The notes under the pieces are model-generated. The model saw only the letters and a program-made list of their open reading frames with translations. It made no database searches and was not told the origin of the DNA. 29,514 nt of DNA from a virus: positions 1 through 29,514 of IMG/VR virus record IMGVR_UViG_3300035698_009030. One strand, 5' to 3'. The stretch's first letter is position 1. Every line of letters begins with the position of its first letter. The translations under genes were made by a program, and so were the position numbers. Positions 1,057 to 26,548 of this stretch are shown in pieces.

Positions 1057-1083
1057 TTTTAATTCCTTTTAATATAAAATCTT

Positions 1084-1545: not shown

Positions 1546-4500
1546 GTGCCACTCTCCTAATCTGCGTTTGGGTTTCAGGATCGGTTCTGATTATTTCTGC
1601 CGTTACATTTTTTAACTCTCTGTCACCGATGAAGACCCTGACCTGGGTATCACTGCTTCCACTGTCTTTACTTACAAGCTGTTGAAGAAGAGCTTTAACA
1701 TCAACCATGTCTGAGTCTGTTGTAATGTGTTCAACACCGTGAAAAGTAGTTGGGAGCGTATACCCAGACATCGGTCCTGATATAACTCCGCCGCCAGCAA
1801 AGGAATTGATGTTGGCTGCTTCCATAAAAGCATCTCGAAACTGGTCCAGCGGCCTGTTTCCACTTTTTAAAGCTTCTACCCAATAGTCAAAACCGGGTTG
1901 ATCAATCATACCTGGGTCTGTGCCAAATTCAGTTCTGCCGATACTATTGTAAGCATCTAACACTACTGACTCTATGGCGTCGTATCCACCAGAATTCCAC
2001 CCATCGTCGGTCTCGCGGGAAGTCACATCTGGGGTCCACCCGGGGATTTGTGCCAATATCTCATAGAGGTCTGCGAGTGTTTTACCACCTGTGATTTCAT
2101 CCGCCATTGATGTTGAGTCGGGTAATGCTCCCTGTAAAGCAAAAAGATCATTCAAAACTCTTTCCATTGCCTTCGGGTCACCGTAATCGGATATAAAATC
2201 AAGATAATTATTTGCGAACCCTGTAAAATCAGAAACTTTAGTTGGGTCTGATTGGGCATCTGATAACAAAGAAGCGTACCTTTCTTCAAAATATGCTTTT
2301 GATTGAACGCCCATGCCAGAACCACCCATGATTTCATCAATGGTCGCCTGGATATTATCAAAAGCTCCTGAAAAATCATCGACAGATTCCGCTGCGTCCT
2401 CTATGGACCAAATAAACTCTTGTAATGGGTGTAGCGAAGTGTCTATCGATGCAAGTTCTAACGCTTTACCAATATCTGTTGCGAGACCTTCCTCGCCCAA
2501 AGCTGATAAAGCTCGAATTTCAAGGTTCTTTATCGTCTTGCTCTGATCTTCAAGATAGCTGTAATATTTATCAGCAGTCTTTGAAAAGTCCAGTAGTTTT
2601 GCGTAAAGCTTTACTCCAGATTCAGTCGATAAGTCAACGGCTTCTATTGTCTTTCTATAAGCGTCTCTTGACCCAGGTAAAGCGAGCCCAACAGCGTCCA
2701 GTGCTGATGTAAGATTTCCTTTAATACCTGCTTGTTTTTCAATAGCAGAATAAAAATTATCATAAAAACTCTTTACATTTGTCTGGAATGCGTCCAGCCC
2801 ACCGGATAGTTTTACAAGCTCTTGACTTAAGATCAATGCCCTATCCCCGGTACTTTCAAACCCAGTCCCCAGCTTTTCCGTCGCCCCTCTTACAACTTCC
2901 AATTCGGTGAGTACTCTGATCAGACTTTCAAAGGCACCTTCTCCTATTTCCTGAAACTGTTGAATGGTGTTACCGTACAGCCCTGCTGCCATTTCATCTG
3001 CAAGCTCTGAAAATTCTTCAGATAGCTTTTTAGCTATCTCTTCGCCATCCAAATCTTTTAAATCAATTTTATCAATTTCAAATTTATAATCGCTAATTGC
3101 CTGGTCAGGGGCAATTCCTGTCCCTGTGGAAAATGCCTCGGCGGCACTTGCAAAACTCTGAAGAACTGCCGTGAATGAATCTAAGATATTTTGATCTTCT
3201 ACTGTAGAGATCCCCACTCTTCCAGTCGTGCTGTCTGTCCCAAACCACCCACCAGTTTCAAAAATACTGACATCTTGAAATGACTTTAACTTCCCTGCAA
3301 GATCCCCAGATACAAGCTCTGATATTGCGACCGGGTCCAGAATAAACCCTGCTGCTTTTAAAGTTTCTGTGATATCCCCACCGAAAGCATTTCCTAAAAT
3401 ACCCCCTATTGCTTTCCAAACATAACCGCCAACGTCTGCGGCAATTGCAGAAAGGTAGTTAACACCGTCATCATAAGCTTCGTCCCACGCGGTTTTGATA
3501 TCTCCAAGCTGTAAAGATTCATCGATGTTTAAAGAAGCCGCATTAAACAATCCATATGACCTCACAATATTTGTTGCTATAGAAGTTATGTTATTATTAA
3601 GATTAACCATTTCATCATATATGCCTGACAGCATGTCATACTGATCAACGTCGATTTTATTTAGCATTTCAAGGCTATTGGATATAGAAGCACTACCAAA
3701 CCCTGCTGCCCCACCTAATACTGTACTGTCCTCTAAGGTTACAACTAATGGGGGAGGCGTACTGCCCTCATCACCGCTTAATCCCTCTAAGATAGAGTAG
3801 ACTGCGCCGACATATTGAACACCCTTCATCCAATCATAATTAGCTGTTTTATTACCTGCGTCATTTTTATTCCAAGAATCGTGTAACTCGCCTGATGAAT
3901 CACTGAATGAATCAATAATATCGTTTATAGAGTCATTTATTTTGCTGCTGAACCCATCTGTCCAAGTGACAAGCATCTCCGCTGTTGTGTTATTAAAAGT
4001 CTTTACGAGACTTTCGTTGAATGACTCCCAATCCTGCATCTGCCCATCTAACAAATCACCCCAAAAGTCAGCGGAAATGTCATGGATGTTATTGTACATA
4101 TGCTGATTGATGTCTTCTACTTCATCGGCTGTTTTTTTCCAGATAGCTTTTTGTTTTTTTCCACTGTTCTTAAGCTCTTTTTCAAATTCTTTAACTTCTT
4201 TTGCAAATCTTTCATCATCAGTCAGGAGTATAGAGTCAAATAACTTTTCAACTGATTTACTAAGCGCTTCCGCTTTTTCTATACCTTTTTCGACTTCTTC
4301 GTTAAATACCCTAACCCCTTCTGCAAACCTCTCAGCATCAGTTAAAAGTATGGTGTCAAATAAGCCACTGACTGCTTTTTTAAACTCCTCGACTTTTTTT
4401 GCCCCTTTATCTATAGTCTTCTCAAGTGTGGTAATCACTTTTTCAGCGTTTTCAATTATGTCAACTCTCGCTCCTTCCATCTCTCTATAGTCAACAAGAC

Positions 4501-6457: not shown

Positions 6458-6597
6458 ATGGAACACTCCTTGCCCAAACCAAGAACATCATAAATGAATA
6501 TCTCAGACACCCTAATATAACGAAACGGTGGGTCGCCTTGGTATAGGAACTCTTTATACTGTCTTTTAATGACTACACTTTGATCAAGTTTTCTCAT
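6454..6597 (-). CDS. Small protein between chaperone and tape measure (47 aa)
   Basis: Short gene starting ATG AGA AAA CTT directly after the TAG of the chaperone T frame and ending TGA, overlapping the GTG start of the tape measure (GTGA). AGAGG lies about nine bases upstream. The product (MRKLDQSVVIKRQYKEF...) is basic at the N-terminus and then aromatic-rich; I do not recognise a family. The tight fit between stop and next start on both sides argues that it is real and translationally coupled to the tape measure. A small tail-assembly role is possible but not shown. Confidence 0.65.
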   Translation of the reverse strand: MRKLDQSVVIKRQYKEFLYQGDPPFRYIRVSEIFIYDVLGLGKECSM

Positions 6598-7331: not shown

Positions 7332-7361
7332 TGAACTTTCCTTTCTTTTATAGTGTTGTAT

Positions 7362-7388
7362 TCTGAGGAGAGGTTATCTCTCCTCAGA
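7362..7388. terminator. Perfect 11-bp hairpin after major tail protein gene
   Basis: Inverted repeat CTGAGGAGAG / CTCTCCTCAG with a five-base loop, extended by one flanking T-A pair. It lies eight bases downstream of the major tail protein stop. No U-tract follows on the minus strand (AATACAAC), so it may act as an mRNA-stabilising or attenuating hairpin rather than a full terminator. Confidence 0.6.
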
Positions 7389-7395
7389 GTTTTAG

Positions 7396-7862: not shown

Positions 7863-9653
7863 CTACATTTTAGGCTTTATCTGTTTACAAACTTGATGTA
7901 AAAACCGATTAACTTCAACGGTAGTCAAATGCCCTACCTCAATTGACGTATCAACAAAAATACGAAGGCCCGCCCGCCTTGCTTTGCTGCAAAAATAAAC
8001 ATCCTCCCCAACAGTATGCCCATCTACTTTCTCAAAGGCAAACCATGGGTGTTCCACTCTATCAAAAACTGCCATGTCAAACAAAAGGCACCCTGTTCCA
8101 GTTGCATCTATCTCAACCAAATCCCCGGAATAAGCTTCTTCATCTGGGATGCTTTCATACTTTCCAATATCCCCTCGTAAAAAAATTGGGTCAAAAGGCA
8201 TCCACCTTCTATGCACTCTAACCCCGCAAATATCCACTTTATGAGATAGTAACTTAGTAAGAGTGTTGGCAGGATACGTCTGATCGGTATCGAGCATCAG
8301 TAAGTACTTTGCTCCTTCCAGTTGAGCCTGTTCTATCAAACTGTTCCTCGCATCTGCTAAACTGCCCGAAAAAGGACCGTGGGGGAATTTAGGGATCAGC
8401 AGCGCATAAGAATCAGGTTTATCCATACAAGCGTAACTTGTAAAAAACTGAACTGGGACCTGTGTATCGACCAAAGGAAAACCAATCGCTATTTTCCCCC
8501 CCATTCGTTCTCTCTTACGTCGGATGTATGTTGTCCTGTCCCTCTCAAGTTTATTATTTTTATAAGCGGCTTTATAAAACTCGTCATTAAGTTCCGCTCC
8601 GTAGTTAACAGGGTGGTAGTGCTTTACCCTTGCCCCCATAGCAATGATTCTTCGCCCCAGTTCTTTAGAGATGTCACTTAATTCATCGTCACAAAAACAA
8701 TGTTCATAGGCCATGTTGAAAAATTGTCTGTCTGGGAGTAACCCAAGCATCTTTTTATGAGCCATCCAATGAGCACGATCATTCCCCGGATGGGTCCAAA
8801 CACCGACAACCCCAAACCAGTTATCATCAACAGTAGAGAGTGTATATTCTAATGCCCTCTCAAACCCTTCTTCAAGTTCGGTATCGTCCCCTAAAAAAAG
8901 AACCCATTCTCTCGTTGTCTCTTTTGTGAGCATATCTACCATCGCGGGGCAACCTATTCTCTCTGTGTCAAATGCAGAAACAATCTCCGCATTTGGCAGA
9001 TGTTTCTCTACTGACCCAATACACCGTTTTGCTGAGTCGGGGCGTACCACCGGAATAATGACACTTATCTTTTTTGACAACTCAGAAGATGGCCCCGGTG
9101 TCAAAAAAGTATATTCAATTTTTTTGAGATAAGGCTTCAACTTTTCTACTTGGTCAGCGTAAAGAAAATTCCCTTCTGTGTCCCCAATGGCGTGAACGTC
9201 ACAACTCACAAAACAAAAAGATGTACACCCCATATATTCTGCTAACTTGACCGCTGTCGCTAAAGAAAATTCATTATGTGCCATACCGAGTTTAGCCCAA
9301 TTAAATACGTGCCTTGGGGAATAGTCTTCGTAGCAGTATTTAGACTCGGCTTCATGCACAAGTAGAATTGCTTTCTCAGGTTTAACCATCTTGCAAAAAT
9401 CTAAACTGCATTGTCCCCTAAAATCACACTCTGGGTTTTGGTTATCTTGTTGTTTTATCCTCTTACTCCCCCCGTCTTTCACCATTGCATATGTGGCGTT
9501 GGGTAAACCCAAAGGCTCAACTTTATAGATGGCATGGTTTAGGGTGATAACAATCCCTTCTCCAATGTCCTCTTTTGTTAAATGCTGTAAAGATGCCCCT
9601 TTCCCAACTATCCAAACTTTTTGTCCTTCGTGCTTGTTTCTAAGACTTTTCAA
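7863..9653 (-). CDS. Three-module glycosyltransferase
   Basis: 596 residues in three parts. About 10-190: a DUF115/MptE-like module with VWIVGKGASLQHL, a nucleotide-binding type start. About 195-370: a GT-A fold of family-2 type, with ISVIIPVVRPDS and the acidic FLGDDTELEEGF. About 385-590: a second GT-A module with KYLLMLDTDQTYP (DxD), CGVRVHRRW and VGEDVYFCSKARRAG, the late E-D motif of GT2 enzymes. It would transfer sugars from nucleotide donors to an acceptor in the cytoplasm. I chose TTG at 9653, seven bases after AAGGA; TTG 9668 would overlap the SD. It overlaps the dehydratase gene by 14 bases, so the two form one unit. The acceptor is unknown: virion tail protein or host surface glycan. 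Confidence 0.85.
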   Translation of the reverse strand: MKSLRNKHEGQKVWIVGKGASLQHLTKEDIGEGIVITLNHAIYKVEPLGLPNATYAMVKDGGSKRIKQQDNQNPECDFRGQCSLDFCKMVKPEKAILLVHEAESKYCYEDYSPRHVFNWAKLGMAHNEFSLATAVKLAEYMGCTSFCFVSCDVHAIGDTEGNFLYADQVEKLKPYLKKIEYTFLTPGPSSELSKKISVIIPVVRPDSAKRCIGSVEKHLPNAEIVSAFDTERIGCPAMVDMLTKETTREWVLFLGDDTELEEGFERALEYTLSTVDDNWFGVVGVWTHPGNDRAHWMAHKKMLGLLPDRQFFNMAYEHCFCDDELSDISKELGRRIIAMGARVKHYHPVNYGAELNDEFYKAAYKNNKLERDRTTYIRRKRERMGGKIAIGFPLVDTQVPVQFFTSYACMDKPDSYALLIPKFPHGPFSGSLADARNSLIEQAQLEGAKYLLMLDTDQTYPANTLTKLLSHKVDICGVRVHRRWMPFDPIFLRGDIGKYESIPDEEAYSGDLVEIDATGTGCLLFDMAVFDRVEHPWFAFEKVDGHTVGEDVYFCSKARRAGLRIFVDTSIEVGHLTTVEVNRFLHQVCKQIKPKM

Positions 9654-10647
9654 CGTTTTTCCTTTCAATTATCCAGTTAACGGTTTTTTCTAAAGATTCA
9701 TTAAAACCTTTAGGTGAAACCCACCCGAGTTTACTAATTTTTGCTCCGTCTAAAGCATACCTTAAATCGTGCCCAGGGCGAGATGAATGAAAATCCACCA
9801 TTTTATAATTTAATGGTTTGCCAACTATTTTGGCAATTTCTTGTGCCAAAGTTAAATTGTCTATCTCTCGCTCACCCACTATGTTATACTGTCCTTTTGA
9901 AGCGTCAATGTTATCTAAAACTTCGGTACCGTTTAACAGCAAAAAACTTACTGCGTTTGCAACATTTCTGGCATGGATGTAGAATCTTGTCCCGGCTTTT
10001 GTTTTACTTGCATCAGCGTGAATTGTGACAACTTCTCCATCAAGTACGTACTTAATGATTAGCGGGACAAACTTTTCTGGATGCTGTCGTTCCCCGATAA
10101 CGTTCATCGTATTAGTTATAATTATGGGGATACCATAAGTATTTGCATACGCTCTACAAAGGGCTTCCTGCGACGCCTTACTCGCTGAGTAAGGGTTACC
10201 AGGGTTCAGTCTGTCTCCTTCACAATAGTTTAATCCAATGGGGGCTGTTCCGTATACTTCATCAGTAGAAAACTGAACGAATTTTTTTAACCCTTTTAAC
10301 TCTTTCGCCCATTCTAACATATGCAGCATCAAGTTAACGTTATTCTGTACAAAAGGAACAGAGTTTTCAATTGAATTATCAACGTGACTTTCGCTTGCCA
10401 TATTAACAATATAATCAAGCTGGCCTACTTCTTGCTTAACTCCATCAGAAATAGGCATAGTTAAATCGACTGGAAAAATTTTCACTCTTGGGTTATTAAT
10501 ACATTTTATTCCTCTAAGCCGGTCAAACCCCGAAGAAGCGTAAGACAATTTGTCAAAAATAACTACTTCCCAATCGGTATTCTTCAAAAAATGCTCGACA
10601 AAATGATGCCCGACGAAACCGCACCCTCCTGTTATAAGTATTTTCAT
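9640..10647 (-). CDS. RmlB-like nucleotide-sugar 4,6-dehydratase / epimerase (extended SDR)
   Basis: 335 residues with the complete short-chain dehydrogenase scaffold: NAD-binding GGCGFVG (7-13), ASESHVDNSI (84-93, the RmlB/GalE region), STDEVYG (127-133, with the Thr-Asp-Glu of dTDP-glucose 4,6-dehydratases) and catalytic YSASK (Tyr153, Lys157). Length is as expected for the family. The likely reaction is dehydration of an NDP-hexose to a 4-keto-6-deoxy sugar; the exact substrate cannot be read from sequence. I chose ATG 10647 (MKILITGG) with AAGGA upstream rather than ATG 10662. It is coupled to the glycosyltransferase downstream, which may use its product. Such a gene inside a tail operon is not part of the core siphovirus set. 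Confidence 0.9.
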   Translation of the reverse strand: MKILITGGCGFVGHHFVEHFLKNTDWEVVIFDKLSYASSGFDRLRGIKCINNPRVKIFPVDLTMPISDGVKQEVGQLDYIVNMASESHVDNSIENSVPFVQNNVNLMLHMLEWAKELKGLKKFVQFSTDEVYGTAPIGLNYCEGDRLNPGNPYSASKASQEALCRAYANTYGIPIIITNTMNVIGERQHPEKFVPLIIKYVLDGEVVTIHADASKTKAGTRFYIHARNVANAVSFLLLNGTEVLDNIDASKGQYNIVGEREIDNLTLAQEIAKIVGKPLNYKMVDFHSSRPGHDLRYALDGAKISKLGWVSPKGFNESLEKTVNWIIERKNVEKS

Positions 10648-10662
10648 CCTTTTTCCTTTCAT

Positions 10663-13985: not shown

Positions 13986-14471
13986 TTAAGCTGCTACCAT
14001 TGAAGCGCCCTCATCAAGTGGGATGTACCATACAGACCATTTGACTGTTCCTGTGGCCGGAGAAGCAGATGAAGTAAGATTCAAGCTACCTGTTTTTAAC
14101 ACCCATTCGCTCGCAGTACTAAAATCAGCCGCACTTGAACCAACAGATAATGTCAATGCTGATCCAACCGCTGTCGGCAGCGTCATCATCCTACCTGGGG
14201 CAAAGCTTTGTATGTCAGCGCTATCGATGCACAAGGCAGTAACTACTGCCGTTGCATCTGTGGTTAAGTGTGATATGTTCAGTAGGGTAGCCGTCGCATG
14301 TATGGCAACAGAAACCTCGCCCAATAACCCAGTTAATAAAACACGACCACCTGTTACAGTGAATAAAGGGATAACAGCTCCTGTTGTCAATGCTACTGCT
14401 GTTTTGTCAACTCTCATTCCTGTTACCAGATCTGCAATTCTCGCTCTTGTGCTTGGTGCGTAGTTAGCCAT
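13986..14471 (-). CDS. Putative head decoration protein, paralogue 2
   Basis: 161 residues, tandem paralogue of the gene at 14501. Both begin MANYAPSTRARIADLVTGMRV and share GGRVLLTGLLGE, PGRMMTLPTAVG-type and DFSTASEWVLKTG segments; the central part is diverged. SD and start region are identical at DNA level to those of the neighbour (TTTGTCAGCTCCTATTT on the plus strand). The VLLTGLLGEVSVAI pattern fits a beta-structured, multimeric phage surface protein. Decoration of the head is an inference from location after the capsid gene. Confidence 0.65.
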   Translation of the reverse strand: MANYAPSTRARIADLVTGMRVDKTAVALTTGAVIPLFTVTGGRVLLTGLLGEVSVAIHATATLLNISHLTTDATAVVTALCIDSADIQSFAPGRMMTLPTAVGSALTLSVGSSAADFSTASEWVLKTGSLNLTSSASPATGTVKWSVWYIPLDEGASMVAA

Positions 14472-14500: not shown

Positions 14501-14983
14501 TTATGCCTCTATCATTGAAGCGCCAGCATCAAGAGGAATGTACCATGCTGACCACTTAATAGTTCCGGTAACCGGAGCCGCCGAACCAAGGAGTTGTAAA
14601 GCTCCTGTTTTCAACACCCATTCGCTCGCAGTACTAAAATCAGCCGCACTTGAACCAGTTGATATAGTCAATGCCGTTCCAACCGCTGTCGGTAATGTGA
14701 ACATTCTACCGGGGTCCATGCCTGTGATATTCCCACTTACAGCAGACATGTATGTTAAAACTGCCGTTGCATCTGTAGTGGTGCTCAAAATCCGTAATGT
14801 GGTAGCGGTTGCTGCGATTTTAACTGAAATCTCGCCCAACAGACCGGTCAATAGAACACGACCACCAGTTATAGTAAACAAATCTACGGTTGCAGCCGTT
14901 ACCAATGCTGCTGCTCTCTCAACCCGCATACCTGTAACAAGGTCTGCGATTCTCGCTCTCGTGCTTGGTGCATAGTTAGCCAT
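14501..14983 (-). CDS. Putative head decoration protein, paralogue 1
   Basis: 160 residues, beta-rich, Ala/Thr-rich. It differs from its downstream tandem copy mainly at residues 22-45 and 65-95, while the N-terminus and the C-terminal third are nearly the same, including a run of over 40 identical bases (plus strand 14615-14657 against 14100-14140). ATG follows AGGAG. Two diverging copies suggest either mixed occupancy of the virion surface or an evolving receptor-contact protein. Family not recognised. Confidence 0.65.
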   Translation of the reverse strand: MANYAPSTRARIADLVTGMRVERAAALVTAATVDLFTITGGRVLLTGLLGEISVKIAATATTLRILSTTTDATAVLTYMSAVSGNITGMDPGRMFTLPTAVGTALTISTGSSAADFSTASEWVLKTGALQLLGSAAPVTGTIKWSAWYIPLDAGASMIEA

Positions 14984-16794: not shown

Positions 16795-18123
16795 CTATCT
16801 TGTTGCAAGGGCAACAAAATGGCTGAGAGTGTTAGTTCCTTTAAACGGGGTGATAGCTGAACCAAGCACTGGTTGACCATCCCAACGATAAGTAAATCTG
16901 AAAACAGATTCATCTACGAGAAACTGTACGTGAATTGAAACATCTCCTTTCAAGCCACCTTTATCAATCGCTTTATACTGAGAAAAATCACACAACATAA
17001 TATCCCCAGTGGTTCCCACCGTCTGACATTGCTCAATGGGGACAACAGGTCGTCCAAAAAGTGTTCCGTAAGGAGCCGCCGAAGCGCCGCCCGCTGGCAT
17101 GTATACCGGAACTCCACCAGTACCAACTGCGATTGACATCTGATTTAACTGAGGCTCACAGTCCTGATTAATTACCCAAACTGCGTTTGGCCGAGATTTA
17201 GCCATCAGTCTTGACCACATGTTGTTGATATTTTCAAAAACAATCGTGCCTGCTGTCTGACCCGCTTCTGCGTCAACAGTCACAACACAACCCGAATTCA
17301 TGATACCGAGTGCTTCACCAGCGCCCGTACCATTTATAATCTGATCTGTGATTTTGAAATCAAACTCGTCTTTAAACCCTGTCTGAATAATCTGGGCGAG
17401 TGCATTTGAATCTTCAAGATTTTCATCTGTGGCATAACAAAGTCCCATGAGTTTATTGAGTTTTAACTCGATCTGACGGAACTTGGGTTTACTTGCTGTT
17501 GCTGCTGCTGCTTCGGCAACGGTGTAAACAACAATCCCACCGGCTCTCGACCCGTTTACACGACTTGTCTCATCAAGCCCGTTAAAGGCCATCCCATTTT
17601 TATTACCTGAAAGAGTAATTTTTGAAATTTTTGGAAGAATTACTCCTGAATCCCAAACGTTTTTAAGGATTTCATTTGAATATTCAGTCTGAACCAAAAA
17701 ACCACCATCTGACGGAGTCGTTTCATTGAGCCCGGTAGCTGCGTTATAGAGCCTTGGATCTACGGTACCGCCTGCAAGACCTGCTTGCATTATGGCTGCC
17801 ATGTTTTGCCCAAAGGAGTCAAACGTGTCCCTGGACCGATTATTGATGCCTACTTCATAAACAGGCGTAGTTTTATCTGCGGGGGTGTCTTTAACAACAG
17901 TCTTTGCTTCTGCGGGTTTCCCCATCCGGGCAAGAACCACTTCCTGTCGTTCAGCAGCCATAACGATTGTTTCAGTTTCTTCGATTCTATTCAATATGTC
18001 AGTTTTCAAATTGATTTCAAGGGGGGTGAGATCACGATTTTCTGCAATCGCTTTTGCGTCAAGATCCCCAATCTTTTTTGACAGATTAGCAATATCTTCT
18101 CTGTACTGTGTTACTGTTTTCAT
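16795..18123 (-). CDS. Major capsid protein (HK97 fold)
   Basis: 442 residues. Residues 1-100 form a charged helical delta/scaffold region (KTVTQYREDIANLSKKIGDLDAKA), which the protease encoded just upstream would remove. The HK97 core begins at about 105 with LNETTPSDGGFLVQTEYSNEIL (about 130-151), the usual first segment of these capsids, followed by strand and spine-helix regions, and ends with VFRFTYRWDGQPVLGSAI. It builds the icosahedral shell. SD GGAG eight bases before ATG. Order portal, protease, capsid is canonical for HK97-like phages. Confidence 0.94.
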   Translation of the reverse strand: MKTVTQYREDIANLSKKIGDLDAKAIAENRDLTPLEINLKTDILNRIEETETIVMAAERQEVVLARMGKPAEAKTVVKDTPADKTTPVYEVGINNRSRDTFDSFGQNMAAIMQAGLAGGTVDPRLYNAATGLNETTPSDGGFLVQTEYSNEILKNVWDSGVILPKISKITLSGNKNGMAFNGLDETSRVNGSRAGGIVVYTVAEAAAATASKPKFRQIELKLNKLMGLCYATDENLEDSNALAQIIQTGFKDEFDFKITDQIINGTGAGEALGIMNSGCVVTVDAEAGQTAGTIVFENINNMWSRLMAKSRPNAVWVINQDCEPQLNQMSIAVGTGGVPVYMPAGGASAAPYGTLFGRPVVPIEQCQTVGTTGDIMLCDFSQYKAIDKGGLKGDVSIHVQFLVDESVFRFTYRWDGQPVLGSAITPFKGTNTLSHFVALATR

Positions 18124-18160: not shown

Positions 18161-19144
18161 TTATTCTTCCTTCGGGTGCGGCGAAGGTGCTATATCTTCA
18201 GCTCTTGCCAACAGTTCTGTTGTTGTCAGCAATTCAGCCCTCTCCAGCAGGTCAGTGGTTGGGTCATTAATAACAAGATCCTCTTCTGCAACAACGTCCC
18301 GTTGTTCTTCAGTAAGAACTTTCTCGTCTTTGACTTCAACCACAACGTCCCGTTGAGTTTCATCAATGACGAGATCCAGTTTCGTCTCGACAACAACGTC
18401 TCGTTGTTCCGCTTCAAAACCTTCTGCAATTATCCCTTTCGCTTGTTTTGTGCTACATCCAGCATCCCGCAAGATGTGCTCTATTTCCCTTGCTGTTAAT
18501 TCTTTATCTTTATTTTTTAATTTATCCGGCACTTTTGCAAATACCGACAGGTCAAATGTTGTGACAGTAGAAGCTTTCTCTTTGCTCACGTCAGCAATAC
18601 TGTCAATGAAGCCTTCGTCAAGGGCTTCTTGTGCCGTCATCCATGTTTCTTCTAACATCATGTCAAAAGCTTCTTCTTCCTTTTTACCGGATTTATCAGT
18701 GTAGACTTTTGCAATCGTGCCACGAATTTTATCCAGTAAATCAGCTTCCTTCCGCATTTCTTCTGCATCCCCTGCCACAAAAGACCATGGCTCATGGATC
18801 ATCAAAAAGGCGTTTTCAGCCATTATAACTTCATCTGCCGCCATGACTATCACTGAGGCAATAGAAGCGGCGAGCCCGTCTACGTAGGCGACCGTTTTAG
18901 AAGAATGCTGTTTGATAGCGTTAAAAATTGTGAGTCCTTCAAAAACAGACCCCCCCGGAGAATTCACACGTATATTAATTACTTTTGAAGTAATCTTATT
19001 AAAATCTTTAACAAATTCCTCCGCGCCTATCCCCCACCAGGAAATCTCATCATAGATATAAACGGTTGTTTCGTCCGCTTTGTTTTCAACCCTGTACGCT
19101 GTGCGCCCTTTCCTTTGAAATGGACTTCTGTTTTCAATTCTCAT
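18161..19144 (-). CDS. Head maturation protease (ClpP/S14-like)
   Basis: 327 residues. The N-terminal 190 form a ClpP-type domain: NSPGGSVFEGL (61-71, oxyanion region), GLAASIAS (90-97, catalytic Ser94 by alignment with ClpP AAS) and MIHEPW (115-120, His117). It would cleave the capsid delta domain during prohead maturation. The C-terminal third is unusual: three 17-residue repeats beginning QRDVV between about 250 and 300, then a Leu/Glu-rich helical tail ending PSPHPKEE. Such tails can act as scaffold-like extensions in head assembly; that is inference here. Confidence 0.93.
   Translation of the reverse strand: MRIENRSPFQRKGRTAYRVENKADETTVYIYDEISWWGIGAEEFVKDFNKITSKVINIRVNSPGGSVFEGLTIFNAIKQHSSKTVAYVDGLAASIASVIVMAADEVIMAENAFLMIHEPWSFVAGDAEEMRKEADLLDKIRGTIAKVYTDKSGKKEEEAFDMMLEETWMTAQEALDEGFIDSIADVSKEKASTVTTFDLSVFAKVPDKLKNKDKELTAREIEHILRDAGCSTKQAKGIIAEGFEAEQRDVVVETKLDLVIDETQRDVVVEVKDEKVLTEEQRDVVAEEDLVINDPTTDLLERAELLTTTELLARAEDIAPSPHPKEE
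18288..18440 (-). repeat. 51-bp repeat in protease C-terminal tail
   Basis: Three copies marked by ACAACGTC on the plus strand at 18291, 18342 and 18393, exactly 51 bp apart, each coding QRDVV plus a variable acidic stretch. In frame, so copy number can vary without breaking the gene. Confidence 0.85.
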
Positions 19145-19161: not shown

Positions 19162-20406
19162 TTATTCGGGTAGGGCATCATTACCCTCCTCATTAGCATT
19201 TACTTTAACTGAGTTTTTTCCAACGTCTTCAAGTTTTTGCATGTTAAGCGGAACAAGATGAATGTCTCCACCTTCAATCGGATTCATGTCTTCTTTTTCA
19301 AGGACCATATTTATGCTAAACACGCCTCTATCCAACATTACTTTATAGTATTCTGCCCTGTCTTTACTGCTGCCTCGTAATAAACCCGCAAGAACGTGCT
19401 TAAAGTAACGACCTGTTTTAAACTGATTTACCGATAATAGCTGTTGGTTATAGCTCTGCTCAAGCCTTACCACCCATGGGAGTAGACTATCTACTACAAA
19501 AGACGTTTGTTCTGCTTCGATATTGTTAAACGATGATTTTGTTAAATCTTTAAGCTTGTGTGGGGGTAGGTTAAACCACCTTGCGATTTCCGGTATCTGA
19601 AACTGTCTACTTTCAATAAACTGCGAATCATTTGGGTTAATACCTAATGTTTGCATTTTCATACCCTCTTCGAGAAGCATGAGTCTATGGCTCTTACCGA
19701 GACCCGAATGGGCTACCATTAGTGAATCTTTAAGATTCTTATGCGCTGGTTCGGTCAATTTACCTGGATGTTCAACTATCGTGCCTGGATGTGTCCCGTT
19801 ACCGAAAAAGTTGCTCCCGAATGTTTCCATTGCTTTGGCGAGACCAATGCCCCTACTCGCCATAGTGATTACCGAGTAACCAACAAACCCGTCGAAACCT
19901 AAACCTGCAACATGTAAAATGTTTTCTCTCGGTAAAACAACGGTTTCTCCATCAACAGCTATTTCATACACCATATTCCCGTCTTTCATCTTCGGAGTTA
20001 CTCGATTTGGTGTAATAGGCCACAACTCAATGACATTCCCATATGTATCTATCACTTTTTCGGCGTAGCCATTGCCCCACGTTAACGTATGAGACAGTAA
20101 ACACTCTCTAACTGCCATTGCTGTCATAAAAGGGTTTGCTGCTGAATGCATTGTTCGGTATAAAGGAAGTGTTGTTGCGGGGAGTGTTTCTCTACCACGC
20201 CGCTGCATGAGATGGAGTGGAAGTGCGCCAATAGTGCCAGATATAAGCGATATAGCGTTCCAAACTGCGGAGTATGTTAAAGCTGTGTATTCATTTACAT
20301 CTTCGCCAGAAGGTGTCTGGTTTCCGGCAAGACTCCATAGGGCTGAATTCCACATCTTTTCATCTGAGACACGATTTATGGAGAACAAATTCTTAAAAAA
20401 GCCCAA
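19162..20406 (-). CDS. Portal protein (HK97 family)
   Basis: 414 residues. The start TTG at 20406 follows AGGAG by seven bases and gives MGFFKNLFS, the typical N-terminus of HK97-type portals; TTG 20424 would put the SD inside the gene. Recognisable segments: YSAVWNAISLISGTIGALPLHLM, NGYAEKVIDTYGNVIELWPI, ENILHVAGLGFDGFVGYSVI, and near the end RFFNLPPHKL-like (WFNLPPHKLKDLTKSSFNNIE). The portal ring sits at one vertex and is the channel for DNA. A sigma70-like promoter lies just upstream, after a terminator, so this gene begins the head operon. Confidence 0.95.
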   Translation of the reverse strand: MGFFKNLFSINRVSDEKMWNSALWSLAGNQTPSGEDVNEYTALTYSAVWNAISLISGTIGALPLHLMQRRGRETLPATTLPLYRTMHSAANPFMTAMAVRECLLSHTLTWGNGYAEKVIDTYGNVIELWPITPNRVTPKMKDGNMVYEIAVDGETVVLPRENILHVAGLGFDGFVGYSVITMASRGIGLAKAMETFGSNFFGNGTHPGTIVEHPGKLTEPAHKNLKDSLMVAHSGLGKSHRLMLLEEGMKMQTLGINPNDSQFIESRQFQIPEIARWFNLPPHKLKDLTKSSFNNIEAEQTSFVVDSLLPWVVRLEQSYNQQLLSVNQFKTGRYFKHVLAGLLRGSSKDRAEYYKVMLDRGVFSINMVLEKEDMNPIEGGDIHLVPLNMQKLEDVGKNSVKVNANEEGNDALPE

Positions 20407-20438
20407 ATTCTTGCTCCTAATCAATTGATTTTAGAGCT

Positions 20439-20468
20439 ATTCTACAATGGCTTACAAGGAAATTGCAA
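20439..20468 (-). promoter_or_regulatory. Sigma70-like promoter before portal gene
   Basis: Minus strand: -35 TTGCAA (20463-20468), 18-bp spacer, -10 TAGAAT (20439-20444). This matches consensus at 4/6 and 5/6 positions. Transcription would start near 20432, leaving about 26 bases of leader before the portal start. Its place right after a terminator supports it. Confidence 0.6.
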
Positions 20469-20529: not shown

Positions 20530-20573
20530 AAAAATGCCCAGGTTAGGCGACTTTGCGTCTTAGCCCGGGCATT
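20530..20573 (-). terminator. Intrinsic terminator closing the cassette before the portal
   Basis: On the minus strand AATGCCC pairs perfectly with GGGCATT, continued by two G-C pairs after a bulged T, and an inner GAC-GCAAA-GTC hairpin; the right arm runs into TTTTT and a second T-rich stretch. It lies between the 48-codon gene (stop at 20614) and the portal promoter. The inner sequence GACGCAAAG and CCTAA recalls part of the c-di-GMP-I riboswitch core, but the rest of that structure is not evident. Confidence 0.75.
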
Positions 20574-20613
20574 ACCGTTCGTCTTTTTTGCCCCATTTTC
20601 TACGTTAGGGGGA

Positions 20614-20760
20614 TCAGTTTATAATTGACAATGAGCAGACAGAGGCCGCTTCTCTGCGCTCCTTAAACCACTTTCCGGTAGGACTGCGTGGTCTTACTGT
20701 GACCACAGGCCCGATAATGCCTGTATAAAATGTGGGCCACAGTTTAATGTATTGACTCAT
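20614..20760 (-). CDS. Small hypothetical protein (48 aa)
   Basis: ATG with AAGGGAG six bases upstream, 48 codons, TGA at 20614. The product (MSQYIKLWPTFYTGIIGPVV...) is hydrophobic at the N-terminus, basic in the middle (RPRSPTGKWFKERRE) and unrecognised. Strong SD and position at the end of the small-gene cluster, about 40 bases before its terminator, support it as real. The first part could be a membrane-interacting segment, but it has Pro and is short. Confidence 0.6.
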   Translation of the reverse strand: MSQYIKLWPTFYTGIIGPVVTVRPRSPTGKWFKERREAASVCSLSIIN

Positions 20761-20775
20761 TTATTCTCCCTTGTT

Positions 20776-20982
20776 TTATTTAAACGCTGCGACATTCATA
20801 CTGTAACTTCCGTCTTTTCTTTTAATGGTATCTGTGACAAGCAGCTCCGCTCCACACATGTTAAGAACTTTCCCGATTATTTCTGTGAAAAAAGCTTCGT
20901 CTCTAACGTGATCTTTCTTACAAGAGACGGTTCCTTCAAATTCATCCCACTCTACTTGCTGGAAAATTGGTTTTAAAGGCAT
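20776..20982 (-). CDS. Hypothetical protein (68 aa)
   Basis: 68 residues; ATG two bases after the stop of the ribbon-helix-helix gene, whose 3' end supplies the SD AAGGAG, so both are co-translated. Acidic N-terminal half (WDEFEGTVSCKKDHVRDE), then GKVLNMCGAELLVTDTIKRKDGSYSMNVAAF. No family recognised. Pairing with a small DNA-binding protein could suggest an antitoxin-toxin order, but no toxin motif is visible. Confidence 0.6.
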   Translation of the reverse strand: MPLKPIFQQVEWDEFEGTVSCKKDHVRDEAFFTEIIGKVLNMCGAELLVTDTIKRKDGSYSMNVAAFK

Positions 20983-20984
20983 CG

Positions 20985-21125
20985 CTATTCTCTCCTTAAC
21001 TTTTTTACGTACTGCTCGATAATGTGACGAAGAAAAGAACTAACTGTATGACCCTTTACTTTGGCTTCTTTTTTGACAGAGTTAATGGTTTCTTCATCTA
21101 ACTTTACCTGGATTGTCTTTTTCAT
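20985..21125 (-). CDS. Ribbon-helix-helix DNA-binding protein (46 aa)
   Basis: 46 residues: MKKTIQVKLDEETINSVKKEAK (beta strand plus helix 1), then GHTVSSFLRHIIEQYVKK (helix 2). This is the Arc/MetJ/CopG pattern: a basic amphipathic strand whose residues (here around TIQVKLD) contact the DNA groove as a dimer, and the G-x-T/S-V-S-x-F-L turn. It probably represses or autoregulates the local cassette, whose promoter lies at 22331-22359. SD is weak (GAAAG). It sits next to the 68-residue gene, coupled by a 2-base gap. Confidence 0.82.
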   Translation of the reverse strand: MKKTIQVKLDEETINSVKKEAKVKGHTVSSFLRHIIEQYVKKLRRE

Positions 21126-21140
21126 AGGTTGTCTTTCTGT

Positions 21141-21548
21141 TTATTGTTGTGGTAAATCTTCGTCTGTGAAGATAAGCTTTCTCGTTGTTTTAAAATTAGC
21201 GCAACTTTTACATGTCGGGATATTGTCCGTTTTACCGGAAAAATCAAAACATGTAGCTCTTGACAAGAGCCTATCGTTTTGATCAGGGCATTGTATAAGT
21301 TCCTCTCCAATCTGGTCAGGTGTTTGTAAATGCTCCCCGATAGCGAGGATATTGTGTCCGTTTATTACCTTTTTGATAAGACTGGGCTGTTTTGCCGCTA
21401 TGGCCAAATCAGTCGCGAGCTTTACCCATTTATGCTTTTCTTTATGCATACTAAGTTTTATTTTTATTTCGCTTACTTTTATCTCCCCTCTTTCAAACTG
21501 AACCATCATCCTGTCAATATCTTTAATTGCACTACCCATTAATGACAT
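21141..21548 (-). CDS. Cys-rich hypothetical protein (135 aa)
   Basis: 135 residues, ATG with AAGGAG upstream, overlapping the end of the previous gene by 17 bases. The first 60 residues are helical and basic (DRMMVQFERGEIKVSEIKIKL, HKEKHKWVKLATDLAIAAK); the end has four Cys (CPDQN, ATCFDF, TCKSC) that could form a zinc site. The pattern is seen in small phage proteins but I cannot give a function. Part of the promoter-to-terminator cassette. Confidence 0.6.
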   Translation of the reverse strand: MSLMGSAIKDIDRMMVQFERGEIKVSEIKIKLSMHKEKHKWVKLATDLAIAAKQPSLIKKVINGHNILAIGEHLQTPDQIGEELIQCPDQNDRLLSRATCFDFSGKTDNIPTCKSCANFKTTRKLIFTDEDLPQQ

Positions 21549-21912
21549 CTCTAATCTCCTTTATCTTAGATTTATATTCCATTTCGTCCAAACTACACTC
21601 TGTAATAAAAATTGCTGTTTTATATATGCTGTTAGCTTCGGCCCATTCCTCGTCGCGTATGGCCCCTAACAACAAACTCTCTACACTACTCTTACTACGT
21701 CCGTTAAACGGTTTGAAACTAATTGCGTCTGATAACTTGGTGAAACAATCAGTGCTACAACAGTTTTGCCTTAATTGCCTTCTTGAATTAAGATTAACGT
21801 GGTTTGTTTCTTTGTTGAATGTAGTAAACTCACTCTTTTGAGCGTCGGTTAGCCTATCTTTCTGCCCCCAAGAAAAATCTTCTTTCGTCGTTAAGGTTGA
21901 CCCAAGGCACAC
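21532..21912 (-). CDS. Cys-rich hypothetical protein with uncertain start (126 aa from GTG)
   Basis: From GTG 21912 the product is 126 residues but lacks a ribosome site. The frame is open up to the stop of the upstream gene (TAA 21925-21927) and there reads IICPVCLGSTLT, so the first Cys of a CPVC zinc knuckle lies before the GTG; more Cys follow (NCCSTDC). Either translation starts at ATT/ATA just after the upstream stop, or the true ATG at 21941-21943 is separated by a one-base shift near the AT-rich run. The rest is helical with acidic C-terminus (ECSLDEMEYKSKIKEIRDV). Confidence 0.5.
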   Translation of the reverse strand: MCLGSTLTTKEDFSWGQKDRLTDAQKSEFTTFNKETNHVNLNSRRQLRQNCCSTDCFTKLSDAISFKPFNGRSKSSVESLLLGAIRDEEWAEANSIYKTAIFITECSLDEMEYKSKIKEIRDVING

Positions 21913-21924
21913 GGGACAAATTAT

Positions 21925-22293
21925 TTAATCTAAGCGGCAGCATGCTCTTCTGCTTTTTGTTCTGTAACATGTCGTACATAAATCAATGCCAAATTCACTA
22001 ACGCCTCTTTCCTCGAAATCGTAGTATTTAGGGAAATGCGTAGAATCAACAAGGTAGTCATTTGGGTTCGCCCTATCATCAAGCCAATAACTCATGTCTT
22101 TTTCATAATCCCATAGGATTCGATTACATCCACCGCATTTTTTTATGTGGTTATAGGTTTTTTCTAAATACAATCCCTTCTTTCTGCATTCTCTACAAAT
22201 ACCCCGATGGTGGAGACCGTTGTACTGCCATCGGCTTTTTAGAAATTGTAAGGTGCTTTTTTTAGTGCCGCATATGTTGCAGATTCGTTTCAC
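21925..22293 (-). CDS. Multi-CxxC putative zinc-binding protein (122 aa)
   Basis: 122 residues from GTG 22293, which has GAGGAG eight bases upstream; an upstream TTG at 22359 is rejected because it falls in the -35 box. Four CxxC pairs: CNIC (near 4-7), CREC (near 34), CGGC (near 52) and CTTC (near 107), then a basic CC end. This arrangement fits two zinc-ribbon or treble-clef sites, as in small nucleic-acid-binding or HNH-like proteins; no HNH His is obvious. It is the first gene after a strong promoter. Confidence 0.72.
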   Translation of the reverse strand: MKRICNICGTKKSTLQFLKSRWQYNGLHHRGICRECRKKGLYLEKTYNHIKKCGGCNRILWDYEKDMSYWLDDRANPNDYLVDSTHFPKYYDFEERGVSEFGIDLCTTCYRTKSRRACCRLD

Positions 22294-22330
22294 GTCTCTT
22301 CTCCTCAATAAAAACAATCTCTCATAATCC

Positions 22331-22359
22331 TTTATACTGCTACGTATTACCTTTGTCAA
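22331..22359 (-). promoter_or_regulatory. Consensus sigma70 promoter of the small-gene cassette
   Basis: Minus strand TTGACA (22354-22359), exactly 17-bp spacer, TATAAA (22331-22336). The match is 6/6 and 5/6. Transcription would begin near 22324 and reach the GTG at 22293 after about 30 bases. It lies between the HTH gene and the Cys-rich cluster. Confidence 0.82.
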
Positions 22360-22373
22360 GCACTAAAATTAAT

Positions 22374-22628
22374 TTATTCAGTTAAATTAATTTCATAGGA
22401 TAAAACAGAAACCCTTGTAACACGAACTGTCCCGGCAATCTTAACTGCTTCCAGGTGCCCGCGCTCACACCATTTATGTATGGTCCGACGAGTAACAGAA
22501 AAATACGCCGCTGCTTCATCTGGCCTTATTAACGTTTTATAAGGTAAACTTTCGACTTTTTTCGGCGGAGCGGGCGGAGGATCTGGTCTTTTTATGCCTT
22601 TTGGCATTTCATTTGAACCTTTTTTCAT
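22374..22628 (-). CDS. Helix-turn-helix DNA-binding protein (excisionase/MerR-like, 84 aa)
   Basis: 84 residues. A Pro/Lys-rich N-terminal 25 (RPDPPPAPPKK) precedes a winged-helix DNA-binding domain: LIRPDEAAAYFSVTRRTIHKWCERGHLEAVKIAGTVRVTR at about 33-73, the pattern of excisionase-family or MerR-like HTH ('DEAAxYxxVxxRTIxxW..xGxLxxxKxxG..RI'). It follows the large terminase gene directly and ends about 15 bases before a consensus promoter, which it may regulate. Start has AAGGAAA. An excisionase role is possible, but no integrase is in the window. Confidence 0.8.
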   Translation of the reverse strand: MKKGSNEMPKGIKRPDPPPAPPKKVESLPYKTLIRPDEAAAYFSVTRRTIHKWCERGHLEAVKIAGTVRVTRVSVLSYEINLTE

Positions 22629-22653: not shown

Positions 22654-24192
22654 TTAAAGCGTTATTACGCCACGAGTTTCATACACCGATGGTCCTTCTT
22701 TCTCAATCTTAGCCACGATACCAAAAGCATTTGACATAGCCGCCAGACCATCAATTCTTCCTTTTGCTTTAGCCTTATCGAGCTTTCTATTACCTGCCGG
22801 ATCTTTAGCTACTACTGCATTGGCAGCGCACATCTTTAGTACCGGGTGTCCCCCGTGAGCGATATGACCATTTAAAAAAGCTTCTTCCATATCGTCTAAC
22901 GCGGGTGCTTGGTCCTTGTACCCCTGTCCATAGGGTTCCAGTGGAAACTCAACCCCCACTCGTTCCATTGCTTTCTTGAAAACGTCAATCCTCCACCTGT
23001 CAAACCCAATGGACGCGATAGTACAGTTCGACAATATTTCAACCATCCTCTCGACCACAAAGTCATAATCGACAGTAGCTCCCGGGGTAGTTTCAATAAA
23101 ACCGTCTTTCGCCCACTGGTCATAAGGTGCCCCGTCTCTATGCGCTCGGTCTTTCAGTCCGATTTCAGGGGTAAAAAAAAACACTCTTGTGTGCCAAACC
23201 TTCTCAACCTGCCAAATAACGGCTAAAGCGGTTAAATCCGTTCTTGCTGAGAGATCCAAACCACAGTAAACTTCGACTCCATCTATCTCATCCGGTATTG
23301 CGTCGCAAGACTCGAACACTGCTTTTGATATAAATGGTGACGACACATCGATTCTCTGGTTAAGGTATAAGTTACGGAAAGAACTCTCCATGGAAGGCAT
23401 ACGTTGAGCTTTTGCTGCAAAGTCTCGCATTTCGGTCAAGCTTCTAAAGTCACCGAGTGCAGGGTTGGCCAGATACCAGTTTTCTTCGTCCCAAATATCG
23501 TATTCTTCGGGTACTTGGTATAAAAAACTGATAAAAGTCGGGTCTATTATCTCACCTTCTCTCACCTTTTCCCCATAATCAATCAATTCTGATAGCAGTG
23601 CAATCTCATTTGGCGCCTGGGTCGAAAAGGTCCAGACCATGGGCTCCTCGTGCGCAGCCGTGGAGGTCAATAATGCGTCATATAACGTACGGTCATTGCC
23701 GAATTCTGCCAACTCATCGAAGGCAATAAAAGAAGACGATTTTCCCATCTTACCTTTTTTTTCACCGGATAAAACAGAATAGGCAGACCCACTAACGGGG
23801 TCAAATATATGTTTTCTTGATTCAGTTACATTAAGACGTTGGGAAAGTGCTTCGTTCATGTAGACAACATTTTTAGCGTAATTGAATAAAACCCCTGCTT
23901 GCTCCCTGTCAATACTGAGACTATAAAGTTGACCATTGCGAACAGCTTCAGGCCCACATAGATGGCAGATTACCAGGAATGAAACTATCGATGTTTTAGC
24001 GTTTTTTCTCGCCATTGAGAGTACCGCTTGGCGTATTAAACGCCTCCCGTTCTCATCACAGGGGTCGTAAGCCGCACGAATGATGTCTTTTTCCCAACCG
24101 CGTAAAACAACAGGCTTCCCCGCCCACTTGCCGTCTGGGAGACGCATCATCTCAATAAACTTAATTATTCTGTCTGATCGTTTAACTGCCAT
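22654..24192 (-). CDS. terL: Terminase large subunit (TerL)
   Basis: 512 residues. ATPase part: LSMARKNAKTS (58-68, Walker A deviant typical of TerL) and FIAFDELAEF (155-164, Walker B with catalytic Glu). Nuclease part begins near residue 310 with YCGLDLSARTDLTAL, the RNase H-like Asp motif, with further acidic residues downstream. This is the HK97-type Terminase_1 family, the motor that packages DNA and cuts the concatemer. The ATG overlaps the preceding small gene by 28 bases and has no good SD of its own, so it may depend on coupling. Confidence 0.95.
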   Translation of the reverse strand: MAVKRSDRIIKFIEMMRLPDGKWAGKPVVLRGWEKDIIRAAYDPCDENGRRLIRQAVLSMARKNAKTSIVSFLVICHLCGPEAVRNGQLYSLSIDREQAGVLFNYAKNVVYMNEALSQRLNVTESRKHIFDPVSGSAYSVLSGEKKGKMGKSSSFIAFDELAEFGNDRTLYDALLTSTAAHEEPMVWTFSTQAPNEIALLSELIDYGEKVREGEIIDPTFISFLYQVPEEYDIWDEENWYLANPALGDFRSLTEMRDFAAKAQRMPSMESSFRNLYLNQRIDVSSPFISKAVFESCDAIPDEIDGVEVYCGLDLSARTDLTALAVIWQVEKVWHTRVFFFTPEIGLKDRAHRDGAPYDQWAKDGFIETTPGATVDYDFVVERMVEILSNCTIASIGFDRWRIDVFKKAMERVGVEFPLEPYGQGYKDQAPALDDMEEAFLNGHIAHGGHPVLKMCAANAVVAKDPAGNRKLDKAKAKGRIDGLAAMSNAFGIVAKIEKEGPSVYETRGVITL

Positions 24193-24661: not shown

Positions 24662-25153
24662 TTATCCGCTAAACATCAACCCGTCCATGCCACTACCGGT
24701 TTCTTCCTTGGGTTTCGACGCTGCTGTCTTTACCCCCTTTGTTCTTAACTTAGTCGATATCGCACCCATAGAAGCTGCTGTCTCTTTCATTATTTTGTAC
24801 CAGGGGTTCTCTGTATAGACGTATTGTTTTTCTACTTCTGGTTTTTCTACTTCTGGTTTATCTAAATCCCCAAAGGTTTTGAGATCTGGTGGAATATAAA
24901 CTTCATTTTGAATGATAGAACCGAACTCCTCAACCTTTTTGGTGGCAAGGTACCTTTGGTTCTCTGTGTCACAAAACGCTGCCAACAGAACAATCGCTTC
25001 ATTGTCAAAAGTGCCAACGGGGTTATCCTTGACTATCCTTTTGAAAAGATTTCTTGACCTGGCCACCATCCCAAACGGGGGCAGCGGTCTTTTTGGTACT
25101 GTTGGATTTACCACTGCCAATTTTCCTTGGGGTTTTGGTCCACGTTTTCCGAT
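24662..25153 (-). CDS. terS: Terminase small subunit (P27-like), starting at ATC
   Basis: 163 residues from ATC 25153. The P27-type small terminase is recognised by the basic N-terminus GKRGPKP, then FKRIVKDNP, helical FDNEAIVLLAAFCDTENQRYL and the closing NPWYKIMKETAASMGAISTKLR. It recognises packaging sites and loads TerL. The usual M-G-K/R-x-G-P-x-P start is present in sequence but its first codon is ATC, seven bases after a perfect AGGAGG; the next standard codon, TTG 25120, has no SD and would lose the basic motif. A short repeat PEVEKPEVEK precedes the C-terminal part. Confidence 0.85.
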   Translation of the reverse strand: MGKRGPKPQGKLAVVNPTVPKRPLPPFGMVARSRNLFKRIVKDNPVGTFDNEAIVLLAAFCDTENQRYLATKKVEEFGSIIQNEVYIPPDLKTFGDLDKPEVEKPEVEKQYVYTENPWYKIMKETAASMGAISTKLRTKGVKTAASKPKEETGSGMDGLMFSG

Positions 25154-25214: not shown

Positions 25215-25276
25215 AAAAATAATGTAATGGTCACTTGCATAGCGCAGCGGTGACAAGTGTACTATTTTATTGGCGG
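25215..25276. repeat. 62-bp direct repeat, copy A
   Basis: Identical to 26487-26548 except for one base (25268 / 26540). It covers the last four codons and stop of the methyltransferase gene and about 50 bases beyond. It contains an inverted repeat CACTTG / CAAGTG with a 16-base spacer. Copies are 1272 bp apart and bound a cassette of three genes. Confidence 0.9.
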
Positions 25277-26023
25277 ATTTACTCCGCAACGCTCTTGAGC
25301 TATATTCACATATTTTTCTGATATATCTACACCAATAAAATTACGGTTATTTGCTTGAGCCATTTTTAAAGTTGTGCCAGATCCACACATTGGATCAAAC
25401 ACAATATCAGATTCATTTGTCCAGGATACTATATGGTCATTGGCAAGTTTCTCTGGGAATGGTGCTGGATGCCCTTTTACGTTCTGCGTTGGTACAATCC
25501 AAACGTTATATCTTTGACCAAATTCTCCTACAGTTTTAATTTTATCTGATCGGACCATCTCACCAGATGATTTCCTTGAAGGTGATACTTTTCTAACTCC
25601 GACACGTTTGTTTTTTCTATCTTTTATGGAATTAAATGTTTTCGGTTTGCCTTTTGAGAAAATAAACATATATTCAAATATTTGATGGTGTCTATTATTT
25701 GATGGATTTGAAAAGTTATTTTTTTGATATATCATTGTATCATGTAGGTTAAACCCTATTTCTTTGAAGTATAAAGCCTGTTTAAAACTCGTACCTGTTT
25801 CAGAACCTTTAACACAAGCATCTCCGACAACCCAAACCACAACACCTCCAGGTTTTGTGACCCTTAATAGTTGATTTGCTATACCTTCAAAATCAAAGTC
25901 AAAGCCATTGTAATTCCTTAGATTATCATATGGTGGGCTTGTGACGGTTAAGTCAATACAATTATTCGGGAATGTTTTCATAATTTCTTTGCAATCACCT
26001 TGATATATCTTATTCGTTTCCAT
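25262..26023 (-). CDS. Site-specific DNA methyltransferase (amino-MTase, TSPPY type)
   Basis: 253 residues. Catalytic motif IV TSPPY (28-32) comes first; AdoMet-binding motif I is near the C-terminus (FDPMCGSGTTLKMA, then FIGVDISEKYVNIA), so this is a beta-type N6-adenine or N4-cytosine methyltransferase; the SPPY form favours N4-cytosine but does not prove it. The central HHQIFEYMFIFSKG is typical. Phage copies without a partner endonuclease usually protect DNA from host restriction. ATG follows AAAGGAC. Its last codons (PPIK stop) lie in the direct repeat, whose other copy holds the same PPIK-stop sequence as a remnant. Confidence 0.93.
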   Translation of the reverse strand: METNKIYQGDCKEIMKTFPNNCIDLTVTSPPYDNLRNYNGFDFDFEGIANQLLRVTKPGGVVVWVVGDACVKGSETGTSFKQALYFKEIGFNLHDTMIYQKNNFSNPSNNRHHQIFEYMFIFSKGKPKTFNSIKDRKNKRVGVRKVSPSRKSSGEMVRSDKIKTVGEFGQRYNVWIVPTQNVKGHPAPFPEKLANDHIVSWTNESDIVFDPMCGSGTTLKMAQANNRNFIGVDISEKYVNIAQERCGVNPPIK

Positions 26024-26486: not shown

Positions 26487-26548
26487 AAAAATAATGTAAT
26501 GGTCACTTGCATAGCGCAGCGGTGACAAGTGTACTATTTGATTGGCGG
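26487..26548. repeat. 62-bp direct repeat, copy B
   Basis: One mismatch against 25215-25276. On the minus strand it still reads CCG CCA ATC AAA TAG, i.e. PPIK and stop, synonymous with the end of the methyltransferase gene, but no methyltransferase frame precedes it: 19 bases upstream lies the stop of a lipoprotein gene. It looks like the scar of an earlier gene end. Confidence 0.9.

Follow-up and report, generated by a model that had tools for sequence, protein, structure and literature searches.

A probable moron-type accessory operon at the terminase-portal junction of an HK97-type phage

Six small genes stand between the large terminase gene (terL) and the portal gene of a tailed phage of HK97 type, whereas in HK97 itself terL and portal overlap. 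What are they doing there, and do they belong to the packaging and head genes or to a unit of their own? In the sources that describe HK97 and HK022 (Juhala 2000; Hendrix 2000; PMC2629481, PMC6316719), a moron is a gene or set of genes that brings its own promoter and terminator and stands between two genes which adjoin in relatives. The first-pass annotation of this DNA read the interval as such an independently transcribed cargo unit. The idea holds in that the unit is separately signalled and its site is empty or differently filled in relatives; its actual transcription we infer. We consider it likely that the six ORFs form a moron-type accessory operon inserted between an HTH_17 gene and the portal promoter, with bounds at about 22373 and 20470, because one relative has an empty site, another carries different cargo and a conserved portal promoter lies downstream.

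The stretch analysed here (the window) is a whole IMG/VR record of 29,514 bases with linear ends, and it derives from a tailed phage whose packaging and head genes are of HK97 type. These lie on the minus strand and encode the small terminase (24662-25120), terL as the upstream neighbour of the cassette (22654-24192; PF20441 and PF03354), portal (19162-20406; PF04860, E 1.8e-96), protease (18161-19144), major capsid protein (16795-18123) and, farther on, the tape measure (1538-6466). The portal reading frame probably begins at the TTG at 20406, which follows AGGAG, rather than at 20424. Among named phages, HK97 has the terminase closest to that of the window (44.8% identity), and the portal best resembles those of Firmicutes gut phages and Streptococcus prophages (about 39-44%). 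No near relatives of the window were found in phage and genome collections, and a search of genomes with the terminase led to one distant Paenibacillus locus. Elsewhere in the window, glycosyltransferase-like and dTDP-glucose-4,6-dehydratase-type genes lie amid the head-tail connector and tail genes (7863-10662); a small structural-region protein is present as tandem paralogues (13986-14471 and 14501-14983), with a related protein at 5439-5948 of the relative designated L034; a near-perfect palindrome, TTCTGAGGAGAGGTTATCTCTCCTCAGA, with a plus-strand T-rich tail separates two minus-strand tail genes (7361-7389); two 300-nt stretches (1-300 and 1221-1520) are 70% alike; and a 62-nt direct repeat, 98% identical between its copies (25215-25276 and 26487-26548), bounds a gene for an N6/N4 DNA methyltransferase (25262-26023).

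On the minus strand the order at the locus is terL, the HTH gene, a promoter, six small ORFs, a terminator, a second promoter-like site and portal. The presence and order of these elements can be read directly from the DNA, and the two signals that bracket the ORFs exceed what chance would provide. The cassette promoter (22331-22359, minus strand) consists of TTGACA at 22359-22354, a 17-nt spacer and TATAAA at 22336-22331, sits inside the 80-nt gap between the HTH gene and ORF1, and matches the sigma70 consensus at 11 of 12 positions. Across both strands of the 29.5-kb window it alone scores 11/12 or higher, whereas dinucleotide shuffles lead one to expect 0.5 such sites per strand. At the far end, a 10-bp stem followed by TTTATCTTATTTTT and a T-rich tract reaching about 20515 forms a predicted intrinsic terminator (20533-20573, minus strand), identified by sequence and fold. 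This is the only strong minus-strand intrinsic terminator of the window, six 15-kb shuffles yielded none, and its RNA fold has a z score of -2.5 against shuffles. Promoter and terminator, both of which the first-pass annotation had called, outrank all other minus-strand sites of their type and occupy the two gaps that flank the ORFs. The exact terminator core has no other copy in viral contigs. A c-di-GMP-I riboswitch at the terminator (loop GACGCAAAGUC) was considered and rejected, as it scored 9.1 bits where the gathering score is 35, and control genomes gave similar values; no Rfam family was found in the window.

Comparison of terL-portal junctions among relatives, which the first-pass annotation had named as a check, speaks for insertion, as the gene set does not recur at this place. 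A search with the HTH gene identified L034 (IMGVR_UViG_3300020045_004654), whose portal, capsid and HTH proteins are 59%, 55% and 51% identical to those of the window. In L034 the terL and HTH genes share 4 nt, and the interval from the HTH stop to the portal start is 87 nt; as judged by gene order, the site is empty, the HTH gene running into portal without cargo. The L034 terminase is of another subfamily, with 26% identity to that of the window, so L034 is a close relative in its head genes and a recombinant upstream of them. More broadly, a profile scan based on the two portals recovered 80 loci, with portal identities of 35-67%. Of the 45 that contain both genes, the window included, 36 have an HTH-to-portal distance of 103-281 nt, against 1,968 nt in the window, a value exceeded only in L093. 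There, about 4.8 kb with genes on both strands lies between an HTH gene and portal (59-4995). The short distance in most loci places the HTH gene in a conserved module and the six ORFs in an inserted segment. No direct or inverted repeats of at least 9 nt, as might mark an insertion scar, were found between the two cassette ends.

The HTH protein itself (22374-22628, minus strand; PF12728, E 1.2e-9; TIGR01764) is of the HTH_17 or excisionase type. Its gene is found just before portal in about 45 loci, and as a conserved portal neighbour it is, by synteny, part of the packaging-head module and not of the cassette. A role as cassette regulator, proposed for this protein encoded just before the ORFs, is thus unsupported, and a gene conserved in about 45 loci is unlikely to be part of a moron; the protein could still bind at the cassette promoter. 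It may instead regulate the head genes, as a sigma70-like promoter often lies between the HTH gene and portal, although the co-occurrence of gene and promoter (p = 0.03) is confounded by GC content. In many relatives, a small Cys-rich protein (VCECGCKYFIP...SPTGQELTAQ...CxxC) is conserved just before the HTH gene (for example, L040 892-1158, L042 184-408, L043 4339-4599, L060 4442-4681 and others); it is missing from the window.

How could head genes be expressed beyond a terminator? A new promoter in front of portal had been reported in the first-pass annotation, and its standing depends on the measure used. By consensus, the putative site in the window (TTGCAA-18-TAGAAT, 20439-20468, minus strand) scores 9/12, which is not above chance. 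Conservation argues for it: 16 of the 63 distinct relatives carry a site that scores 10/12 or better no more than 150 nt before portal, mostly with an 18-nt spacer, whereas dinucleotide shuffles of the same 63 stretches give a mean of 2.2 and a maximum of 6 in 100 trials, and random stretches of the same loci contain such a site in 7 of 588 cases. By a family weight matrix, the 20468 site, which precedes the portal start by 62 nt, comes second among minus-strand sites of the window, a rank that is supportive rather than proof as the matrix derives from few sites; the 22359 site does not fit this matrix. On this comparative evidence, a sigma70-like promoter ahead of portal is conserved across relatives, and the window retains a match to it at 20468. 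Such a promoter could allow head genes to restart past the cassette terminator, which would in turn explain why a terminator-bearing unit is tolerated here.

The content of the terL-portal junction differs in every relative examined, and none shares the gene set of the window. That terL and portal are usually adjacent is true of HK97 but not of this group, in which gap lengths form a continuum from 11 to about 2,200 nt over 75 loci with this gene order (L003 and L005, which have other head genes in between, were left out of the count). Most junction cargo is on the same strand as its neighbours and has good ribosome sites, and no terminator was found in the window between terL-HTH and the cassette, which could thus also be expressed by read-through from the packaging genes. 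These features fit a reading in which the six ORFs are simply part of the packaging/head transcript, an unusually long example of a variable small-gene interval without independent expression. We think this improbable. Of all promoter sites and minus-strand terminators in the window, the best ones stand on either side of the ORFs, and cargo in most close relatives lies between terL and the HTH gene, whereas in the window, L035 and L075/L077 it lies between the HTH gene and portal with a strong promoter directly behind the HTH gene (12/12 at 4135 in L035; 11/12 in L075/L077). L035 (IMGVR_UViG_3300024258_000029; portal 67% identical) has the same layout as the window, with HTH gene, strong promoter, cargo, terminator (4818-4847) and portal in succession, but its cargo is a single unrelated ORF of 189 aa instead of six ORFs. 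No terminator was found after the cargo of L075/L077.

What the cassette encodes is less easily placed. The first-pass annotation listed six small same-strand genes, including three successive Cys-rich proteins and a ribbon-helix-helix (RHH) regulator. All six ORFs are present on the minus strand, as are the three CxxC or Cys-rich proteins, but ORF2 is doubtful as a separate gene, and the codon scores of ORF1 and ORF6 are negative and neutral, respectively; ORF2, ORF3, RHH and ORF5 are coding by the codon model of the window. ORF1 (21925-22293, 122 aa) has a GTG start after GAGGAG and four CxxC motifs, and scores -0.23 in that model despite its strong Shine-Dalgarno sequence and these motifs. 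ORF2 (21532-21921, about 129 aa; CPVC ... CCSTDC) has neither an ATG nor a Shine-Dalgarno sequence and is in frame with ORF1 across a single TAA (21927-21925); its CPVC motif is upstream of the first usable GTG, at 21912, and would need an ATA/ATT start or read-through. ORF1 and ORF2 may therefore represent a single broken gene, one gene expressed by read-through or two genes coupled by reinitiation, and they look partly decayed. A match to ORF2 in L033 is a 31-residue local one within the frame of another protein, and we judged it chance or unrelated. ORF3 (21141-21548, 135 aa) combines a helical N-terminus with a Cys-rich C-terminus (CP...C...CxxC) and has one relative, at 3972-4361 in the terL-portal junction of L047 (phmmer 2.4e-6); the shared part is the Cys-rich C-terminus, and the L047 relative adjoins a 290-aa zinc-ribbon protein. 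The RHH (Arc/CopG-type) assignment of the 46-aa protein at 20985-21125 is borne out by PF01402 (21.5 bits, cut-off 20.5); the protein also matches AvtR in the PDB (E 4e-4) and has a weak positional analogue in L052/L054 (E 0.035). ORF5 (20776-20982, 68 aa), which starts 2 nt past the RHH stop, and ORF6 (20614-20760, 48 aa), whose codon score of about zero leaves its coding status uncertain, are orphans, as is ORF2.

Searches of the cassette proteins against Pfam, PHROGs, NCBIfam and PADLOC returned the RHH fold and a weak zinc-ribbon match only. By tblastn, no homologues were found in phages for ORF1, ORF2, ORF3, ORF5, RHH or HTH, nor in plasmids for ORF1, ORF2, ORF3 or ORF5; ORF1 had none in genomes, and pattern scans of viral contigs with ORF1, ORF3 and ORF5 gave no match. 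AlphaFold2 models were unusable (mean pLDDT 34.7 for ORF1 and 41.4 for ORF3). The cassette has a GC content of 39% against 42%, no mark of recent import.

The zinc-ribbon match raises a second alternative, in which ORF1 and ORF2 are the remains of a zinc-ribbon homing nuclease that once drove its own insertion, the other ORFs being passengers. ORF1 matches nothing but the zinc ribbon of Hpy99I-type nucleases, and this through residues 2-39 (Pfam His_Me_b4a2, E 0.021; PADLOC REase_II, 0.023; PDB 3fc3, E 0.33), an in-frame TAA separates ORF1 from ORF2, and the same junction contains HNH-like genes in L099, L097 and L095, GIY-YIG genes in L107 and L084, and remnants of a nuclease of one or other type in L077. 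However, these matches are weak (E 0.02 to 0.3), no catalytic region was matched in ORF1 and no catalytic HNH, His-Me or GIY-YIG motif was found in ORF1 or ORF2, ORF1 showed no significant similarity to the L047 and L099 proteins when compared with them directly, and a homing nuclease would not require a unit of six genes that includes one for an RHH protein. A homing origin thus seems doubtful, to about the same degree as a shared packaging/head transcript. Least probable is a toxin-antitoxin or defence unit in which the RHH protein would be the antitoxin or regulator and ORF5 or a zinc-ribbon protein the effector: the 2-nt RHH-ORF5 spacing is that of type II pairs, RHH weakly matches RelB/CopG antitoxins and the same junction holds AbiL (L020 3087-4686; AbiLi, E 9.5e-23), AbiD (L025 2154-3089; E 2.7e-14), ParE/DinJ-like pairs (L024 2096-3581) and RelB (L028 2120-2425) in other phages, but this is guilt by location, with defence-bearing phages distant from the window (portal about 39%), no toxin or defence family matched by the cassette proteins (in PADLOC, none better than E 0.02) and no family match for ORF3 or ORF5 of the kind expected in a type II pair.

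Returning to a moron-type operon, we find the ORFs between two genes that are close together in relatives (L034 and about 36 loci with 103-281 nt), with a promoter and a terminator of their own that exceed chance, and with content that varies between relatives. We propose that host sigma70 RNA polymerase would start at 22359-22331, transcribe ORF1 to ORF6 and stop at 20573-20533. Head-gene transcription would then resume at 20468, where the conserved portal promoter lies, so that the insertion would spare portal expression. Low expression of the unit is probably maintained by the RHH protein through binding at its own promoter, and the small zinc-ribbon proteins probably target the host or bind nucleic acids; here we infer both autoregulation and all protein functions. 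Expression from a prophage, which the first-pass annotation mentioned as common for morons, is unsupported: a search for tyrosine integrases found none in the window and none in 13 of the 14 relatives covered, and one for resolvases found none in 11 records, most of the records being incomplete. There is likewise no positive evidence for the suggested defence or host-control role, defence genes appearing only as the cargo of other phages at this junction.

That cargo recurs at one junction in distant phages is more interesting than the unit itself. The AbiL, AbiD, ParE/DinJ-like and RelB carriers are gut and Streptococcus phages. Other occupants include an HTH-IrrE protein (L023), an aminoglycoside-adenylyltransferase-like gene (L026), small zinc-ribbon and RHH genes, and an N6/N4 DNA methyltransferase (L109 3783-4541). 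Because this methyltransferase is 54% identical to that at 25262-26023 in the window, where the gene lies outside the junction, it appears to move between sites. We tentatively suggest, as a possibility with the odds against it, that the terL-portal boundary is a general docking site for cargo in this broad group of phages, since head genes with their own conserved promoter and an HTH_17 gene upstream would make terminator-bearing insertions harmless; the cassette would then be a six-gene occupant whose new zinc-ribbon and RHH proteins target the host or rival phages. The conserved portal promoter offers a testable reason for tolerated insertions, and the boundary is a simple place to seek new defence or host-takeover genes because AbiL, AbiD, toxin-antitoxin, methyltransferase and homing-endonuclease genes occur there across distant relatives. 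A literature search that covered few subscription papers found nothing specific on this junction as a known cargo site.

Compared with known systems, the unit would be an ordinary kind of phage add-on whose proteins are nearly all orphans. Like the morons of HK97 and HK022, it has its own promoter and terminator between genes that are neighbours in relatives; those morons have one or two genes, whereas the cassette has six and occupies a site, between terL-HTH and portal, where HK97 has nothing. The SPP1 segment of ORFs 8-10 (PMC6316719) is similarly bracketed by transcription signals and interrupts the packaging/head gene order, but it follows portal, carries a replication origin and encodes proteins unrelated to those of the cassette as far as tested. 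The best parallel is the ‘ant moron’ of P22-like phages (immunity I region; PMC2629481), which is found before the tailspike gene, contains an antirepressor and has no demonstrated sequence relation to the cassette, but is, like it, a variable multi-gene unit of the late region with RHH repressors (Arc, Mnt) that is missing in some relatives.
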